Assembly (NCBI RefSeq): GCF_000016665.1
Contig: NC_009523.1
Span: 620,001 to 684,000 of the forward strand
Direction: 5' to 3'
DNA from: Roseiflexus sp. RS-1
Lineage (GTDB): Bacteria > Chloroflexota > Chloroflexia > Chloroflexales > Roseiflexaceae
Length of the DNA: 64,000 bases
Position 1 is the first letter of the stretch. Every line of letters begins with the position of its first letter. Positions 13,859 to 22,873 of the stretch are shown here, piece after piece. The notes under the pieces are model-generated. The model was not told where the DNA came from. It searched no databases and worked only from the letters and a program-made list of their open reading frames with translations. Position numbers and translations under genes: made by a program.

Positions 13859-15334
13859 TCAGTGCTCCCAAAACGGTCGCACCCATCCCCGTCGCACCAG
13901 TTCGGCGCGCAGATCGAGCATCGCAGTGTAGGTCGGCAGCACGTAGAGCGTCGCGCCGGGCGGCAGTCGGTTCAGCGCAGCATCAAGCGCATGCGACGGG
14001 TCGTCCGCGATGGTCATCCGCTCCGGCTCGACTCCGGCATATTTCAAGCGCACCGCCATATCTGCCGCGCGCGTCCCACTCACCGTCACGTGCGCCACGC
14101 ACCCCGTCAGACGCTCGAATTCCGCATCCCACAGCCATGAGACATCCGTGCCGTCGGCATGACGATCGTTGATCAGAATGAAGAGGTGCAGGTTATGGTT
14201 GGTGTTTGATGCGATGAGAGGGGAATCGTGATGTGAAGGAGCAGGAGAGACTTCCGGCGCGGTGGACGTGTGGAACTTCCGCGCTTCGGTCAGCATGCGA
14301 ACGGTTTCGGTTGCGCCGACCGGATTTTTGATCAGAGCGATGAGCAACGGTCGCCCACCGGCGTCGATCCGTTCAATGCGTCCGAATGCCGCATCGAAGC
14401 ATTCGAGCGACGTGCGGATACGCGCAGCAGCAACGCCGAGTTCCAGGCACGCCGCAGTTGCGGCGAGCGCATTGATGGCATTGTACAGTCCGGGGAGCGG
14501 CAAATGCACCTCCATCGCACCCCCCGGAAACGTCAGGCAGAGTGTTGCATGGTCAGCGCCGTGGAGATCCAGGCGTTCCAGCGCATACACAGGGATCGGG
14601 CGTGCAGCGCCGCATGCCTCGCACCGGTAATGCCCGACGTGGGCGTAGAAGAGCGCAGTATAGCGGTAGGGCGCACCGCAGCGACGGCAAAACCGGGCAT
14701 CGCCGATCTGCGCCGCTGATCCTGCCGCATGCCGGACATCGTTGAGACCGTAGTAGCGCACCTGCGCCGTCAACCCTTCACCCAGCGCCGCCACGGCGGG
14801 ATCATCGGCGTTGAGCAGAACCGTGGTGGTGGCGGGGAGACGTTCAAGCGCCGCCCGCCACCCTGCCGCAACCGTATCCACTTCGCCGTAGCGGTCGAGT
14901 TGATCGCGGAACAGATTATGCAGCACCACCAGGCGCGGATGGGTTTCGGCTGCCACATCGGGGAAAGCCGCCTCATCCGTCTCGAAGAGGGCAATCTGCG
15001 CCCTGAGGCGTCCGTCGGGCGATGCGCCTGCCAGCGCCGTTGTCGTGACGCCGCTCACCAGATTGGCGCCAGCGCGGTTGTGAAGCAGTGCGCGTCCATC
15101 TGCCGCCAGTGTCGCCGCAATCATGCGGGTGGTGGTGGTTTTGCCGTTGGTCCCGGAGAGCAGCGCCACTCCCTGGGGCAGCCGCGCCGTCAGTTTCCGC
15201 AGTGTGTGCGGATCGATCCGCCGGGCGACGAGACCCGGAAGCGTCGTGCCGCCGCCGCGCCGCAACATGCGACTGGCAATGCCGGCTGATTGACCGGCTG
15301 TGATTGCCAGGAAGAGTCGAACATCGAACATCAT
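13859..15334 (-). CDS. murT: Lipid II isoglutaminyl synthase subunit MurT (Mur ligase family)
   Basis: The 491-residue product shows the Mur ligase P-loop SGTNGKTTTT (about residues 59-68), a four-Cys zinc ribbon insert (CRRC and CEAC, residues about 213-241) and the MurT motif INDRHADGTDVSWLWD. In Gram-positive bacteria MurT activates Glu of lipid II and GatD supplies ammonia. No GatD gene lies on either side. A 25-residue Ser/His/Asn-rich insertion before LFILIND is unusual. The gene begins 12 bases after an XdhC-type gene, an odd operon partner. The muramyl ligase fold is certain; the MurT role is inferred. Confidence 0.85.
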   Translation of the reverse strand: MMFDVRLFLAITAGQSAGIASRMLRRGGGTTLPGLVARRIDPHTLRKLTARLPQGVALLSGTNGKTTTTRMIAATLAADGRALLHNRAGANLVSGVTTTALAGASPDGRLRAQIALFETDEAAFPDVAAETHPRLVVLHNLFRDQLDRYGEVDTVAAGWRAALERLPATTTVLLNADDPAVAALGEGLTAQVRYYGLNDVRHAAGSAAQIGDARFCRRCGAPYRYTALFYAHVGHYRCEACGAARPIPVYALERLDLHGADHATLCLTFPGGAMEVHLPLPGLYNAINALAATAACLELGVAAARIRTSLECFDAAFGRIERIDAGGRPLLIALIKNPVGATETVRMLTEARKFHTSTAPEVSPAPSHHDSPLIASNTNHNLHLFILINDRHADGTDVSWLWDAEFERLTGCVAHVTVSGTRAADMAVRLKYAGVEPERMTIADDPSHALDAALNRLPPGATLYVLPTYTAMLDLRAELVRRGWVRPFWEH

Positions 15335-15346
15335 AGGCGTGCCGGG

Positions 15347-16081
15347 TTACCTGCCGGTCAACCCGTGGCGTGCTGCAACAACTTCGGCGATGATACTCAC
15401 GGCGATCTCTTCCGGCGAGTCGGACCCGATCTTCAGCCCGATTGGCGCGTGCAGGCGCGCCAGCTGTTCTTCCGGCACGCCATCGGCGCGCAACCGTTCG
15501 AGACGTCTGGCGTGCGTTTTGGGACTCCCCAGCGCGCCGACGTAGCGCGCTGGCGAAGGCAGCGCAACCTTGAGCGCCGGGTCGTCGAGTTTCGGATCGT
15601 GGGTCAGCAGCACCACAAAACTGTTGCTCGTCAACCGTCCCGGCAACACTTCATCGGGCCAGGCGTGGATCAGTTCATCGGCGTGGGCGAAGCGTTCCGG
15701 GGTTGCAAAGGCGCCGCGCGCATCGATAACAACGGTGCGAAACCCAAGTGCTTTGGCGAAGGTGACGAGCGGGATGGCGATGTGCACTGCCCCGACGATA
15801 AACATGGTTGGGGGAGGAGGAAAGGTCTCGATAAAGACCTGCACTTCTCCTTCAGAGGTTGCATATGTGCGAATTCCGCTCTCGGCGCGCAACAGCATCG
15901 CCAGCGCATCGCGTTCGACCGCTTCATTGAGTGCAGGTTCGCCCAGCGTGCCGAGCAACGCTTCGTCGGGGCGCACCAGCGCTTTTGTTCCGATCTGCCC
16001 CGCTCCATCGACGATAGTTGCCACTGCGACCGGTTGCTCTGCATCGAGACAGGCCTTGAGTGTCTGATATAACGTAGCCAT
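15347..16081 (-). CDS. XdhC/CoxI-family molybdenum hydroxylase maturation protein
   Basis: The 244-residue product has an N-terminal XdhC/CoxI region (PVAVATIVDGAGQIG) and a C-terminal Rossmann domain (MFIVGAVHIAIPL, VIDARGAFATPERF, YVGALGSPKTHARR) as in XdhC. The family helps insert the sulfurated molybdenum cofactor into xanthine or CO dehydrogenase-type enzymes. The ATG at 16081 has GGGGA upstream; a GTG at 16093 is the alternative. No molybdenum hydroxylase is encoded in this window, so its client is elsewhere. It lies between a short XdhC N-domain protein and murT. Confidence 0.88.
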   Translation of the reverse strand: MATLYQTLKACLDAEQPVAVATIVDGAGQIGTKALVRPDEALLGTLGEPALNEAVERDALAMLLRAESGIRTYATSEGEVQVFIETFPPPPTMFIVGAVHIAIPLVTFAKALGFRTVVIDARGAFATPERFAHADELIHAWPDEVLPGRLTSNSFVVLLTHDPKLDDPALKVALPSPARYVGALGSPKTHARRLERLRADGVPEEQLARLHAPIGLKIGSDSPEEIAVSIIAEVVAARHGLTGR

Positions 16082-16252
16082 GATTTTCCCCACAGGAACG
16101 AAAAGGGTTTGTGTACTTCACAGGTGGTATGCCGTTGAAAAAGCGCGTGGATCACAGGAACGCTCGAAAAACAGAACACGCGCCCTGGCGTCGCACCATC
16201 GCTCTTGGACGCAGCAACAGCAGCAAAAGTTGCAGTGGCGTCAGGCGCCCGC

Positions 16253-16567
16253 TTACCACTCCAGCGGCTCAACGAACACGTCGATGATCCCGCCGCATGC
16301 CAGCCCGACATCCCATGCCTCATCGTCTGCAACGCCGAAGTGGAGCAATTGCGCCTTGCCGGTTCTGATCGCTTCCTGACAGGCGTCGAACACAGCGCCC
16401 TCGATACAGCCGCCGCTGACCGAGCCGACCATTGCACCGCTCGACGAAACCGCCATCTTTGCTCCAACACCACGTGGTGCAGAACCAAGCGTCTTCACCA
16501 CAGTGGCAATCGCCACGCGCTCGCCGCGCGCGCGCCATTGCTCAATTGCAGGAAGAACGTCTTTCAT
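16253..16567 (-). CDS. Stand-alone XdhC/CoxI N-terminal domain protein
   Basis: The 104-residue product is only the XdhC_CoxI N-terminal domain: ERVAIATVVKTLGSAPRG, VSSSGAMVGSVSGGCIEG and GLACGGIIDVFVEP are characteristic, including the conserved Cys residues. The second XdhC-type gene follows 171 bases downstream on the same strand and carries the Rossmann half. In other bacteria the two regions are often one protein, so this looks like a split pair acting together in molybdenum cofactor delivery. The gap between them (16082-16252) shows no gene. Confidence 0.88.
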   Translation of the reverse strand: MKDVLPAIEQWRARGERVAIATVVKTLGSAPRGVGAKMAVSSSGAMVGSVSGGCIEGAVFDACQEAIRTGKAQLLHFGVADDEAWDVGLACGGIIDVFVEPLEW

Positions 16568-16582
16568 ATGTGTGCCTCACCA

Positions 16583-18700
16583 TTATCGCAACGTCTCACC
16601 CAATGTTGTCGGTTCCAGACCGGCAGCACGCAGCCGATCAATAATACCGGGGAGTGCGCCAGCAGTCGCCGGACGCCCGTGGAGCAGGAGGATGCCGCCG
16701 GACGCCCATGCGGGATCGGCGACGGCACGGTCGAGCCATGCCGGTATGCCGCGATCATCTGCGCTCCAGTGGTACGGTATATACCCTTCTGCCGTGACTA
16801 CGACGACCGCCTGCGTGGTGTAATCTCCGTAAGGGAAGCGAAAGTACGGTCGCGTGCTGCGACCCGTGGTCTCCTGCACGATACGCTCAGTCTCGCGGAG
16901 TTCATTCGCCATACCGTCGAGACCGATCCGCGAGAAAAAGGGATGCGTCAACGAATGGTTGCCGATCTCGTGTCCATTGGCGACAATCGCGCGCGCAGCG
17001 TCGGGGAAACGTTTGACCCATCGACCGGTCACAAAGAACGTCCCTTTGACCCTGCGCTGCCGCAGCGCATCCAGGATAGCATACAACGTCGTATCATCGA
17101 TTTCGATGTCGAATGTGAGCGCCACCTTGCCGGATGCAGGATTGCCGCGGTGCACCGGTTCGGTCAAACCATAAGCCGGTTCTCCGGCGCGGAACAACGG
17201 TATCGCCAGCGCCCGTTCGGGGCGCAGCGGCGCTTCGATATCGATGGCGTTCAGGGTTGCGATGGATGCAGCATCACTGCCCAACCGCGCCGCAATGCCA
17301 TCGAGCGTTTCACCGGCAGCGACCTGGTGAACGGTATACCCGATCAGGGCAGGCAACGGGGAGGGAGCAGGGGTCGGCACAGCGGTCGGCGTCGCCGATG
17401 GCTCGATGAACGGCAGACTCAGCGGGAGAAGCACAGGATGTCGGGCGACTGGCGCTTCCTGAACGTGTGCTTTTGGCGGCGCAACCTGACCCGGATTCGG
17501 CTGGTTGAATGGTGAATATGCTGACGTACCAAAGAGTCGCCCGCCGAGGATCAGCGCAGCACACACAACTGCTGCCGCAATGAAGGGGAGTGGTCGGTTC
17601 ACCGAAGGCGGGCGCGCGGCGCGGCGCGGCAGCGGTTGGAACAGAACGCCGGTATCGGGTACAATCCGCAGAACTGGCGCGCCCCACATCGCTCCTGTAT
17701 GCGCCAGCGCCGCGCGCCCGATGGTCACCGCCAGATCGACCGACGCTCCCAGCGCCAGGTGGTGATAACAGATCGCCGCAAAACGTGCAGCAGCATCCGA
17801 TGGCAGCGGCATGCTGAACCCGATGGTCGCCGGCAGATGCGCATCGATCAGCAACGCCGCACATACGACAGGTGCAATGTTCAATGTGCTGCCATGTCCT
17901 TCTCCGCCGGTCAGCGTCACTAACCGCAGATCGGTGGCGTCCGCCAGCAGATCGATCAGATCACCGGCGTCGAACCGGTTGCCGATGTCCAGTTCCAGGC
18001 GCTGATCCGGCGTCAGCGTGGTGCGCGCAATAAGGTGAAGCACATGCGGCGCTTCGTCTGCCAGCGCCTGACTGAGGGTTGCCGGTGTGGCATCGGGCAG
18101 TATCCGTAGCGTAAGGACGCCAGTGCGGATGTGCGGCGCCAGCGCACGATTGAGGTCATCCAGATGGTGATGGTTGCCGGGTGATGCAACTGCCAGCACG
18201 CGCAGCGGTGGACGCAGCGGCAGGGACGGTGGCGGCGTGATGCGCCTCCCGACGCGCACCAGCGCATAGTCTGCGCGTAATGCCGGTTGCCAGACATTGA
18301 CGCTTCCCAGCGTGAGATACTCCCAGGGGAGCGCTGCGAGTTCCGGGGCATTGATCTGGAGACGCACCTGCACACGGGCGCCCTTTGCCACAGCAGTGTG
18401 CGCGGCTTCCAGGAGCAGCGCGCGGATCGGCGCGGTAAACAGCGCCCGTCCCAGCGCCAGACCGGTCTCCTGAACATCGTCGATATGCTGCGCACCGGCA
18501 TGCAACGCACGCCTTCCCAGATCGATCAGCGCTTCGGAGAGAAATAACGCTGACGCAACTTCACGCCCGTTCCCGCTGGCGCGAGTCGGACAATACCCCG
18601 ACTCGTCGCAGGGACCAATGGCAATATGAACGATGATAGGAGAGGCGGCGCTGTCCGCTGCTGCTGGCATGATCTTTCGCTGCAATGGTCTGCTGCTCAT
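16583..18700 (-). CDS. Membrane fusion: degenerate CHAT-like domain, LysM, polysaccharide deacetylase
   Basis: The 705-residue product has three parts. Residues 20-360 look like a CHAT (caspase-like) domain: ALPWEYLTLG, the strand PHVLHLIA, LRLVTLTGGEGHG and the closing MWGAPVLRIVPDTGVLF. The expected catalytic His of GHG and the Cys after the LVxL strand are absent, so it is probably not a protease. One membrane helix spans 371-390, then a Pro/Thr linker. A LysM repeat (455-500) and a NodB deacetylase domain (525-700) follow, with TFD at 529-531, HSLTH at 582-586, RFPYG, and LLLH at 671-674. The second Asp of TFDD is replaced by Ile. The likely topology puts the CHAT-like part in the cytoplasm and the glycan-active part outside. 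The start may instead be 18670. Confidence 0.85.
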   Translation of the reverse strand: MSSRPLQRKIMPAAADSAASPIIVHIAIGPCDESGYCPTRASGNGREVASALFLSEALIDLGRRALHAGAQHIDDVQETGLALGRALFTAPIRALLLEAAHTAVAKGARVQVRLQINAPELAALPWEYLTLGSVNVWQPALRADYALVRVGRRITPPPSLPLRPPLRVLAVASPGNHHHLDDLNRALAPHIRTGVLTLRILPDATPATLSQALADEAPHVLHLIARTTLTPDQRLELDIGNRFDAGDLIDLLADATDLRLVTLTGGEGHGSTLNIAPVVCAALLIDAHLPATIGFSMPLPSDAAARFAAICYHHLALGASVDLAVTIGRAALAHTGAMWGAPVLRIVPDTGVLFQPLPRRAARPPSVNRPLPFIAAAVVCAALILGGRLFGTSAYSPFNQPNPGQVAPPKAHVQEAPVARHPVLLPLSLPFIEPSATPTAVPTPAPSPLPALIGYTVHQVAAGETLDGIAARLGSDAASIATLNAIDIEAPLRPERALAIPLFRAGEPAYGLTEPVHRGNPASGKVALTFDIEIDDTTLYAILDALRQRRVKGTFFVTGRWVKRFPDAARAIVANGHEIGNHSLTHPFFSRIGLDGMANELRETERIVQETTGRSTRPYFRFPYGDYTTQAVVVVTAEGYIPYHWSADDRGIPAWLDRAVADPAWASGGILLLHGRPATAGALPGIIDRLRAAGLEPTTLGETLR

Positions 18701-19361: not shown

Positions 19362-20324
19362 TCAGCGTTGAAACGCGCACGACCACGACCCTTTGACCTG
19401 ACCGTCATCCGACTCAAAGACGCCAGACAGGCCATCCCCTGTGTATGTGGCGCGCCCCTTCCAGGTGAAGGTTTTGTCAGCATCGCTCGCATCACCCGTG
19501 CCGATAGTGATGTCAACCGGCAGCGGCGTTCCCACCGGTGCGTTTTGCCCGGCGCTTATCACAAACAAGCTCACCGGCGTCGGTAACGTCCCAGGCATGC
19601 TGGCAAAGGAGACACGGAACAAGATTTTGCCGGGATCGCTGCAGATCGCTTCGTACAAAAATCCCGTCCCTTTGAGGTCGTGCAGCGTGGTCACGCTGGC
19701 GAACTGGGCGGGATGTTCGATGGTGACCCGCATGTCACTCATGGCGCCGGTTGGGGGCGCAGCGGTCGGACTGGCCGTCTGCGGATAGGGAACGAAGCGG
19801 GCGGATAGCCACTGCCCCAGCGCCAACACCTGCTCGCGCGTGAAGCCGCCGTAGGACTCGACGGTGACATACCAGCCGTTGAGCACAGCGTAGAGACGTA
19901 TATCCTGTTGCGTCTCCTGGATACGAGCAACGTCGCCCAGCGACACATCCTCTGAACCCTGAGAGACTTCCTGATACTGCATGATGGCGCGAAATGCCTG
20001 TTGGCCAGACCGGGCCAGTTCGACGCGCACCGTGAGGCTCTTTCCGCCGGCAAATTCGTAATTGCAACCAATTTCAGCTACATCGGTCGGCAGGACGTAC
20101 ATATCGTTGATTGAATTGCCGAGCAAAGCAGTGAGCACCTCCTGTGGCACGATGGTGCAACGTGCATCACTCCTCAGCTCGGCGGGGTTGATCTGAGTCG
20201 TGGGCGGAGCGACACTGGCGGGAGTCGGTTTGCTCTCCTGGGCAGGCGCCCCGCTCTCGGACGAACAGGCCGGCAGAGCCAGCGCCAGGATTAATAGGGC
20301 GAACGTCAAATGCACCCTTGACAT
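19362..20324 (-). CDS. Lipoprotein of unknown function
   Basis: The 320-residue product begins with a lipoprotein signal peptide (LALALPAC, lipidated Cys at residue 20) and a Ser/Pro/Thr-rich spacer. Residues about 50-190 form one domain containing two Cys (DARCTIVP, IGCNYEFAGG) that may pair. Residues about 200-320 look like a beta-sandwich (MRVTIEHPAQFASV, YTGDGLSGVFES, GSWSCAFQR). No catalytic motif is visible. The protein is probably anchored on the outer face of the membrane. It is not tightly linked to its neighbours. Confidence 0.8.
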   Translation of the reverse strand: MSRVHLTFALLILALALPACSSESGAPAQESKPTPASVAPPTTQINPAELRSDARCTIVPQEVLTALLGNSINDMYVLPTDVAEIGCNYEFAGGKSLTVRVELARSGQQAFRAIMQYQEVSQGSEDVSLGDVARIQETQQDIRLYAVLNGWYVTVESYGGFTREQVLALGQWLSARFVPYPQTASPTAAPPTGAMSDMRVTIEHPAQFASVTTLHDLKGTGFLYEAICSDPGKILFRVSFASMPGTLPTPVSLFVISAGQNAPVGTPLPVDITIGTGDASDADKTFTWKGRATYTGDGLSGVFESDDGQVKGSWSCAFQR

Positions 20325-20463: not shown

Positions 20464-21741
20464 TCAACCTGCAACCAGATGCTCATACTCCTGCTTCGTC
20501 CGGCGCGCAACGATGGGCCAGTCGAATGTTTCGCGCACCAGACGGACGCTCGCTTCGCCCCAGGCTGCCCATTGGTCGCGCTGTTCGAGAGCGAGGCGCA
20601 ACTTTGCCGCCAGATCGGCGGCATCGCCTGGACGAGCCAGATAGCCGTTGCGCCCGTTGAACACTTTGTCGGGAATGCCGCCTGCCGCCGATGCGACGAT
20701 GGGGCGGCGGTGGATCATGGCTTCCAGGGTCACGAGCGATGAGCCTTCATAAAGGGTCGGATGCACCACCAGATCGATCTCCTCGTAGAGGTTGTGCAAT
20801 TCGGTGTCGTTGAGGCGCCCGACGAAGGTGATATGTCCGGCAATGCCAGCCTGTCGCGCCTGTTGTTCCAGCGCGGTTCGTTCTTTCCCTTCGCCCACCA
20901 GCAGCCAGCGCCAGTTCGGTGGAAGATGATCGCGCACACGGGTAAGCGCCTCGATCAGCACGTGATACCCTTTGTTGCGCTCCAGCCGCCCAACGCTGAG
21001 GATGGTCAGGTCGGCGTCATCGAGGCGCAGCCGTTCGCGCAGCCGCGCACGCACGATGTCGTTGACCGGCGCCAGGCATTCATCGGCGTCGATGGCGCTG
21101 GGAATAACCACAACCCGCTCCGGATCGACGCCCAGATAGCGTGGCAGGTCGTCCCGTGTACAGGCATCGGTTGCGATGGCACGGTCGGCACAACGTGCGC
21201 CGTAGGAGTAGAGCGCTCGAAAGGGCGCATATGCCAGCCACTTGCGCCAATCGGGTGTGCGATACTCTTCCAGCCCATGCGGGTTGGCGATGAACGGCAG
21301 GCGACGCAACAGCGGGTCGCGGACGCGGATCCAGCCGTAGCCGAACGCACATAATCCCTGGGCATGAACCACATCGTATGCGCCGCGTCGTGCAGCGATT
21401 GCCGCCATTCGCCCCAATCGCCAGGAATACCAGGGATAGTTGATCTGTCGTCCTGAAATGGAGTTTGGGCGCAGCAGCGGCGATGTGTAGTCGTACCGCA
21501 GCGTGATCACGCGCTCGATGCCCGGCAGCGCATCGGCATACGGATTGGCGCGATCAGGGGTGTGGTTGTGCGATGGTGCGCCCGGTGTCTGCACATACAG
21601 CGTCACCCGCACGCCAAGCCGCGCCAGGTGGGTCGTCAGATGGAAGACATGGCGTTCGATGCCGCCGAATCCGTGCAGTGGAAAGACGACGCGCGCCAGC
21701 ATGGCGACGCGCAGTGCATCGGAAGGGGATCGTTCACTCAT
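20464..21741 (-). CDS. Glycosyltransferase family 4
   Basis: The 425-residue product is a GT-B fold, GT4-type glycosyltransferase. It has the N-terminal acceptor domain start MLARVVFPLHGFGGIERHV, the GRLERNKGYHVLIEAL strand of the donor domain, and the EGSSLVTLEAM form of the EX7E motif. It probably transfers a sugar from a nucleotide donor to a cell-surface glycan or lipid. I start it at 21741; the stop of the Gfo/Idh gene lies 16 bases upstream, so the genes are likely co-transcribed. The acceptor is unknown. Confidence 0.9.
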   Translation of the reverse strand: MSERSPSDALRVAMLARVVFPLHGFGGIERHVFHLTTHLARLGVRVTLYVQTPGAPSHNHTPDRANPYADALPGIERVITLRYDYTSPLLRPNSISGRQINYPWYSWRLGRMAAIAARRGAYDVVHAQGLCAFGYGWIRVRDPLLRRLPFIANPHGLEEYRTPDWRKWLAYAPFRALYSYGARCADRAIATDACTRDDLPRYLGVDPERVVVIPSAIDADECLAPVNDIVRARLRERLRLDDADLTILSVGRLERNKGYHVLIEALTRVRDHLPPNWRWLLVGEGKERTALEQQARQAGIAGHITFVGRLNDTELHNLYEEIDLVVHPTLYEGSSLVTLEAMIHRRPIVASAAGGIPDKVFNGRNGYLARPGDAADLAAKLRLALEQRDQWAAWGEASVRLVRETFDWPIVARRTKQEYEHLVAG

Positions 21742-21757
21742 AGCGCGTTGCTCTGCA

Positions 21758-22873
21758 TCAACGCCGTTCAAGCCGAATCCAGGCGCCACCTGTGACAGCG
21801 CTCTGCCGCGCCGCGCCGATCACACGATCCGCCGCCAGACCATCGCTCAAAGCCGGACAGGGAGTTGCGCCGTGGATCAGGGCGCTGATGAATGCAGCCA
21901 CCGACGCCAGATGCCACTGGAGCGTTCCAACCGGTGTTTCAGGCGCGGGCAACGCTGTGGCAGGATCGATCCGACTCAGGGTAGCAATGCGTCTTCCGCC
22001 GATGCCCTCTGTTCCCTCGACGATCTCCAATCCATTGGGGTCGCGGGTGTCGAATATCAGCGCGCCGACGCTCCCATACGCTTCGATACGGATGTCGTCG
22101 CCTGCACCGGGAACGACTTTCGAGACCTCGATAGTTCCATAGCCGCCACCGGCGAGTTCGAGCGAAAGCCAGGCGACATCATCGCCTTCGACCGGAACAG
22201 GCGCGCCATCAGCGCCGGGTCGCTCGCCGATGACGATGGCGGTGCGCGCCGACACGGCATGTATCGGTCCGAACAGATAGTGGGTCAGATCGATCAAATG
22301 CGATCCCAGATCGGCAAGCACGCCGCTCCCCGGTCCGCTGAAGCGCCAGGAGATCGCGCGATCACGGCGCAGATTGCTGCTGCGGTAGTAGCGCAGGTGG
22401 AAACTGCGCACATCGCCGATCAATCCGTTATCGATGCGTCGCCGTGCTTCCTGAAGGGCTGGGACAAAGCGCAGGTGAAAGTTCACGCCGCCCGGCAGTC
22501 CTCGTGTGTGCGCCAGGTCAACGATGCGTTCAGATTCTTCCGGTGTTGCGCCAAGCGGTTTTTCACAGAAGAGTGCTTTCCCGGCAGCAAGCGCCGCTTC
22601 CGCGATGCGCGCATGATCGCCGGTTGGCGCGCAGCAATCGACAATGGTGGCAGAAGGAAGCGCCAGCAATTCATCGAGGTTCGTGGTTGTCAGCACATCG
22701 CCAAGTTCGCGCCGTGCCCGCTCCGCCGAGGCAGCGCTGGCAGTGACGACCCCTGTCAGGCGCACGCGGATTCCCAGATCGGGGTAGACCAGCGGCAGCA
22801 TCCGGTAACAGAGCGCATGCATGCGCCCGATCCCGCCATAACCAACCAATCCGATGCCAATCACTGTGGTCAT
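21758..22873 (-). CDS. Gfo/Idh/MocA-family oxidoreductase
   Basis: The 371-residue product is a NAD(P)-dependent sugar-type oxidoreductase: nucleotide loop GLVGYGGIGRMHA at the N-terminus, the signature FCEKPLG near residue 100 and a C-terminal alpha/beta domain with DLGSHLIDLTHYLFG. The ATG at 22873 overlaps the TGA of the DUF402 gene by four bases (ATGA), so translation is coupled. With the glycosyltransferase downstream it may build or modify a surface sugar. The substrate cannot be read from the sequence. Confidence 0.9.
   Translation of the reverse strand: MTTVIGIGLVGYGGIGRMHALCYRMLPLVYPDLGIRVRLTGVVTASAASAERARRELGDVLTTTNLDELLALPSATIVDCCAPTGDHARIAEAALAAGKALFCEKPLGATPEESERIVDLAHTRGLPGGVNFHLRFVPALQEARRRIDNGLIGDVRSFHLRYYRSSNLRRDRAISWRFSGPGSGVLADLGSHLIDLTHYLFGPIHAVSARTAIVIGERPGADGAPVPVEGDDVAWLSLELAGGGYGTIEVSKVVPGAGDDIRIEAYGSVGALIFDTRDPNGLEIVEGTEGIGGRRIATLSRIDPATALPAPETPVGTLQWHLASVAAFISALIHGATPCPALSDGLAADRVIGAARQSAVTGGAWIRLERR

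Follow-up and report, generated by a model that had tools for sequence, protein, structure and literature searches.

What does a CHAT domain without its catalytic residues do on a membrane protein that ends in a LysM repeat and a NodB-type polysaccharide deacetylase domain, and is such a protein genuine at all? This question is raised by a single gene in the window, the stretch of 64,000 nucleotides from Roseiflexus sp. RS-1 analysed here. The window covers 620001-684000 of one contig with 5,801,598 bases. An earlier note on this DNA had read the product as a signal-transducing wall enzyme. Our analysis points tentatively to a membrane-anchored scaffold built on the inactive CHAT domain.

Domain organisation of the fusion protein

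The reading frame is open along 705 residues without stops, and its start codon is ambiguous (ATG at 18700, or M11 at 18670). The gene and its parts are located as follows.

16583..18700, minus strand: pseudo-CHAT/TM/LysM/NodB protein of 705 residues, with orthologues of the same domain order
17615..18643, minus strand: pseudo-CHAT domain, residues 20-362, from the AlphaFold2 model, Foldseek and VIA-align matches to CHAT, separase and DdvA, and a SAVED-CHAT profile match
18023..18025, minus strand: codon of Arg226, at the catalytic His position in alignments
17903..17905, minus strand: codon of Gly266, at the catalytic Cys position in alignments
17528..17584, minus strand: transmembrane helix, residues 373-391, predicted N-in/C-out from hydropathy, charge and the full-length model
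17198..17329, minus strand: LysM repeat, residues 458-501, from Pfam (E 8e-4, slightly under cut-off) and the secondary structure of the model
16586..17155, minus strand: NodB/CE4 domain, residues 516-705, with TFDI replacing TFDD, from Pfam, NCBIfam, fold matches and motifs

The Pfam CHAT family (PF12770) matches residues 80-331 with an E-value of 5e-5 and 23.3 bits, slightly short of the cut-off (24), and the same domain passes this cut-off with 25.4 bits in a six-frame search of the genome. This match and that of LysM (19.7 bits against a curated cut-off of 20.9) are each weak when taken alone. The AlphaFold2 model of residues 20-362, calculated with 29 orthologues as input, has a pLDDT of 92 and a pTM of 0.92. 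In VIA-align, it reaches Z scores of 20-22 against Csx29/TPR-CHAT over ~285 residues, 17-19 against separases, 18 against DdvA and 15-16 against gingipains, whereas caspases score far lower (9-10). The closest solved folds are Csx29/TPR-CHAT by Z score and SAVED-CHAT by Foldseek E-value. In addition, the one solid PDB match of the sequence profile is SAVED-CHAT (8tl0, E 4e-9); the GHG and NAC motifs of the latter align with the altered stretches of the pseudo-CHAT. The VIA-align matches rule out another fold for the N-terminal domain, and the Z score of 22 to Csx29 upholds the CHAT domain claimed in the earlier note. As modelled, the domain is a CHAT fold but no CHAT protease, the dyad being gone.

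The helix following this domain has a hydropathy of 2.12 and is flanked by net charges of +4 before and 0 after. Net positive charge precedes the helix in every fused form, while the bias is missing in some proteins of genera g8 and g12. The fusion protein is thereby predicted to be a type II membrane protein with its CHAT half in the cytoplasm. An N-terminal CHAT domain followed by a single transmembrane segment is the layout of HetF. As a side observation, one protein of a relative (G026, L125:2662-4989), read from sequence, combines a CHAT domain with an intact-looking dyad, a transmembrane helix and a TolB-like repeat tail. Beyond the helix, the predicted LysM region adopts the strand-helix-helix-strand order expected for LysM. 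With a pLDDT of 67.5 and a pTM of 0.36, the model of the whole protein is poor and uninformative on the relative placement of the halves, and its interdomain linker has low confidence and is apparently flexible.

Loss of the dyad and history of the fusion

Orthologues are present in 48 of the 82 genomes of the order (all at E 2e-53 or below, with the next match at 7e-41), all within two families (f1 and f4), which we take to be Roseiflexaceae and Chloroflexaceae. The search in the phylum covered a sample of ~300 genomes, and spread beyond Chloroflexota was tested via the fused proteins only; this search returned Roseiflexus, Oscillochloris and other Chloroflexota as named relatives. Reaction-centre genes accompany the orthologue in 45 of the 48 genomes, but a role in photosynthesis was rejected, as 18 further genomes have reaction-centre genes without an orthologue and the link is confounded by phylogeny. 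The genomes of g8 (G012, G015, G017-G025) are small, most have reaction-centre genes, and nearly all keep the pseudo-CHAT.

In the window protein, the His of the GHG motif is replaced by R226 and the Cys after the LVxL strand by G266. The earlier note called for a check of whether all homologues lack this pair, which is true of the Cys (0 of 48 orthologues) and nearly so of the His, found at position 226 in a single orthologue (G005) that has Ser at 266. Four outgroup CHATs that were checked, one of them from the same genome, possess His and Cys at these positions, so the loss of the dyad across the orthologues is old. Wherever they are aligned in the 48 orthologues, residues W126, E127, R149 and R329 never vary, and H219 hardly does. 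Within Roseiflexus and the nearest genus, dN/dS is 0.21-0.35 for the CHAT half and 0.06-0.13 for the NodB half, the latter being more constrained. From these sequence comparisons, purifying selection acts on both halves, the pseudo-CHAT domain has stayed under it, and the proteins constitute a pseudo-CHAT family of long standing in phototrophic Roseiflexaceae/Chloroflexaceae. Moreover, Cys311 (window 17768-17770), located before a conserved Tyr, is Cys in 44 of 48 orthologues and Phe in the four outgroups.

The fused form is found in Roseiflexus (six genomes), g5, g6, g17 and part of g12, and forms with CHAT and helix but no NodB are found in g3, g8, g16, g21 and others. These NodB-less orthologues retain CHAT and helix, except one that has lost the helix (G011), and expose an outer segment of ~14-41 residues. 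Because several orthologous lineages have CHAT and helix only, what is conserved is the pseudo-CHAT with its membrane anchor, and NodB is an outer arm that a lineage may or may not have. The coupling of CHAT to a deacetylase, as put forward in the earlier note, therefore stands as a fusion but not as a constant partnership.

The occurrence of the same fusion in six Roseiflexus genomes and other genera, in several independent assemblies, argues against sequencing error or a chance join, and the homologue search, returning the same order, bears out a natural joining through one membrane helix to LysM-NodB. The fused NodB halves form one clade (support 100/100), apart from the LysM-NodB paralogue (~40% identity), with no free-standing member found among the homologues searched. 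This single clade likewise indicates a natural fusion, and independent fusions or a relocated NodB gene were rejected on the same grounds. In unordered parsimony four state changes suffice, with gain and loss indistinguishable; the NodB clade favours a single early fusion with subsequent losses of NodB. One orthologue of fused length (G349:C222, L192) carries an in-frame TAG, due to assembly error or decay. Within the collection of literature searched, no description of the pseudo-CHAT/TM/LysM/NodB architecture came up, in agreement with the suspicion that it was undescribed.

The NodB half and the gene neighbourhood

Polysacc_deac_1 of Pfam matches residues 520-639 (E 7e-28), and the top NCBIfam match of the NodB half is PdaB, under cut-off. 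The base Asp531, His582, His586, Arg621, Asp648 and His674 are kept, and motifs 2-5 (HSxxH, RxPYG, the motif 4 Asp and the motif 5 His) are present. In motif 1, all 12 aligned fused halves have Ile532 where TFDD has its second Asp, a metal ligand, and so read TFDI, whereas E533 and D535 are invariant within the fused family. The deacetylase with most catalytic motifs described earlier is thus confirmed for motifs 2-5 and not for the metal Asp of motif 1, without which deacetylase activity is only putative. A LysM-NodB paralogue without CHAT (G000:C1:5018836-5019747, L089) also lacks the second Asp of motif 1 (TLDAG).

A review attributes metal binding to the second Asp of TFDD, and MurNAc deacetylases lacking it, for example PdaA, are nevertheless active on MurNAc (PMC5855634). 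The exceptions to TFDDG in one survey are BA3943 and BA0150, the latter being metal-free (PMC6115787). The NodB half resembles the PdaA, PdaB and BA3943-type proteins in its CE4 fold and in a motif 1 without the usual metal Asp; it differs in being joined to a pseudo-CHAT, and the identity is only about 26-30%. Both halves may be pseudoenzymes, with the dead protease fused to a CE4 domain that binds glycan rather than deacetylating it. The TFDI motif in all aligned fused halves points this way, as does BA3943, which ranks first among the fold matches of the full-length model, is called a CE4 pseudoenzyme in its title and is also without the usual motif 1 (PMC6115787). The activity of PdaA-like enzymes without this Asp speaks against it, together with the retained base Asp, both His, Arg and motif 5 His and the invariant E533/D535. 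We regard such a double pseudoenzyme as a serious possibility, though one we would not yet favour; it is compatible with a scaffold.

The genes around the fusion gene are arranged as follows, all in the same direction.

20464..21789, minus strand: GT4 glycosyltransferase upstream, by Pfam, a conserved neighbour in Roseiflexaceae
19362..20324, minus strand: DUF3558-like probable lipoprotein between GT4 and the fusion gene (Pfam E 1.8e-5, under cut-off)
16253..16567, minus strand: XdhC/CoxI-family protein by Pfam, conserved in Roseiflexus and G009, with its start 15 bases past the fusion gene
15347..16093, minus strand: XdhC protein by Pfam, conserved in Roseiflexus
13859..15334, minus strand: MurT-type Mur ligase downstream, conserved in Roseiflexus

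Of the 17 other Roseiflexaceae genomes inspected, 16 have a GT4 gene upstream and on the strand of the pseudo-CHAT gene, whether the latter is fused or not. The CoxI, XdhC and MurT genes (window 13859-16567) come after the fusion gene and share its strand, an order conserved in Roseiflexus, and no homologue of the DUF3558-like lipoprotein clusters at neighbouring loci. The Chloroflexaceae loci inspected have no GT4, CoxI, XdhC or MurT neighbours, so GT4 is not a universal partner. No CRISPR/SAVED sensor or effector genes are found among the annotated neighbours (GT4, XdhC, MurT, SelA and metabolic genes).

Proposed role and competing explanations

We tentatively propose, at somewhat less than even confidence, that the protein is a scaffold for envelope-glycan machinery, built on a membrane-anchored pseudo-CHAT and equipped in some lineages with a CE4 arm that binds the wall. 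The cytoplasmic half would be a proteolytically dead CHAT kept as a folded binding module, which most likely acts from inside to hold an enzyme or complex for envelope glycans at the membrane. In Roseiflexaceae, the leading candidate for this partner is the GT4 encoded just upstream. The single helix would cross the membrane, and in the Roseiflexus lineage LysM and CE4/NodB would stand outside in the wall, where this arm would tie the membrane site to peptidoglycan and may de-N-acetylate it.

A useful analogy is HetF of the filamentous phototroph Anabaena, which likewise has an N-terminal CHAT domain and one transmembrane segment. HetF is septal, and its binding to FtsI is lost by point mutations of E130 or L278 (PMC8406250), which makes it an example of a CHAT-TM protein at work in the divisome. 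Compared by description only, HetF differs in being a putative protease with TPRs that is reported to require its active site (PMC8406250), whereas the fusion protein has a dead dyad and ends outside in LysM-NodB. HetF is therefore a precedent for place and binding and not for a dead CHAT. The defence proteases Csx29/TPR-CHAT and SAVED-CHAT, are nearest in fold, and the fusion protein differs from them in having no dyad, in being membrane bound and in having no CRISPR/SAVED parts among its annotated neighbours. Pseudo-orthocaspases of phototrophs are also caspase-fold pseudoenzymes without His/Cys, but they are p20 orthocaspases and not CHAT, and their survey found none in phototrophic Chloroflexi (PMC6426788). 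DdvA, a transmembrane anti-sigma factor (8rot), has a CHAT-like fold in a membrane protein and is, going by its structure title, a sigma-factor regulator.

The match to DdvA (Z 18) and the existence in relatives of CHAT-TM proteins with an outer domain, such as that of G026 (locus L125), lend themselves to a transmembrane receptor, in which LysM/NodB would sense wall glycan outside and signal through the helix to the pseudo-CHAT, or the reverse. We consider this unlikely. With only ~14-41 residues outside in NodB-less orthologues, LysM/NodB sensing cannot be the shared function, and the flexible-looking linker of low confidence would be a poor lever for a single helix. The signal-transducing wall enzyme of the earlier note is less favoured here, since a scaffold or tether fits the data equally well and the NodB-less forms better, and the NodB half is without its metal-ligand Asp. 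A reading in which the CHAT domain is merely an anchor or fold remnant and NodB the functional part, which would agree with the better conservation of NodB in dN/dS, appears improbable, as several lineages miss NodB yet keep the CHAT half with its invariant residues.

The pseudo-CHAT could also regulate active CHAT proteases of its own cell or act on them as a dominant-negative decoy, in the manner of cFLIP with caspase-8. Potential targets exist: the genome of the window has nine other CHAT places, and CHATs occur in all 41 Chloroflexaceae genomes. At a Pfam threshold of E 1e-4, which could miss divergent CHATs as it misses the pseudo-CHATs themselves, a CHAT match is found in none of the 11 g8 genomes and not in G013, and G007 matches its own pseudo-CHAT only. 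The pseudo-CHAT is nonetheless kept in 10 of the 11 g8 genomes and in both g3 genomes. A decoy is disfavoured in g8, which keeps the pseudo-CHAT without a Pfam-recognised CHAT, and this genus likewise speaks against it as the general function; we hold such a role to be very improbable.

Building on the scaffold, the pseudo-CHAT inside and the glycan-binding CE4 arm outside could form a two-sided device, joined by the one helix, through which a glycosyltransferase step in the cytoplasm is coupled to wall state. This extension is doubtful; if true, it would place the caspase/CHAT fold in use beyond proteolysis, immunity and cell death. What is chiefly known of CHAT domains is their role as proteases in defence and cell death; here it is the dead version that is conserved, and it is tied to the envelope. 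Two families of filamentous phototrophs retain it, including genomes without any other recognisable CHAT, and it offers a clean test of the work of the caspase-like fold without catalysis. In filamentous Chloroflexota, whose wall and division machinery has been little studied, the family is a candidate component of that machinery.
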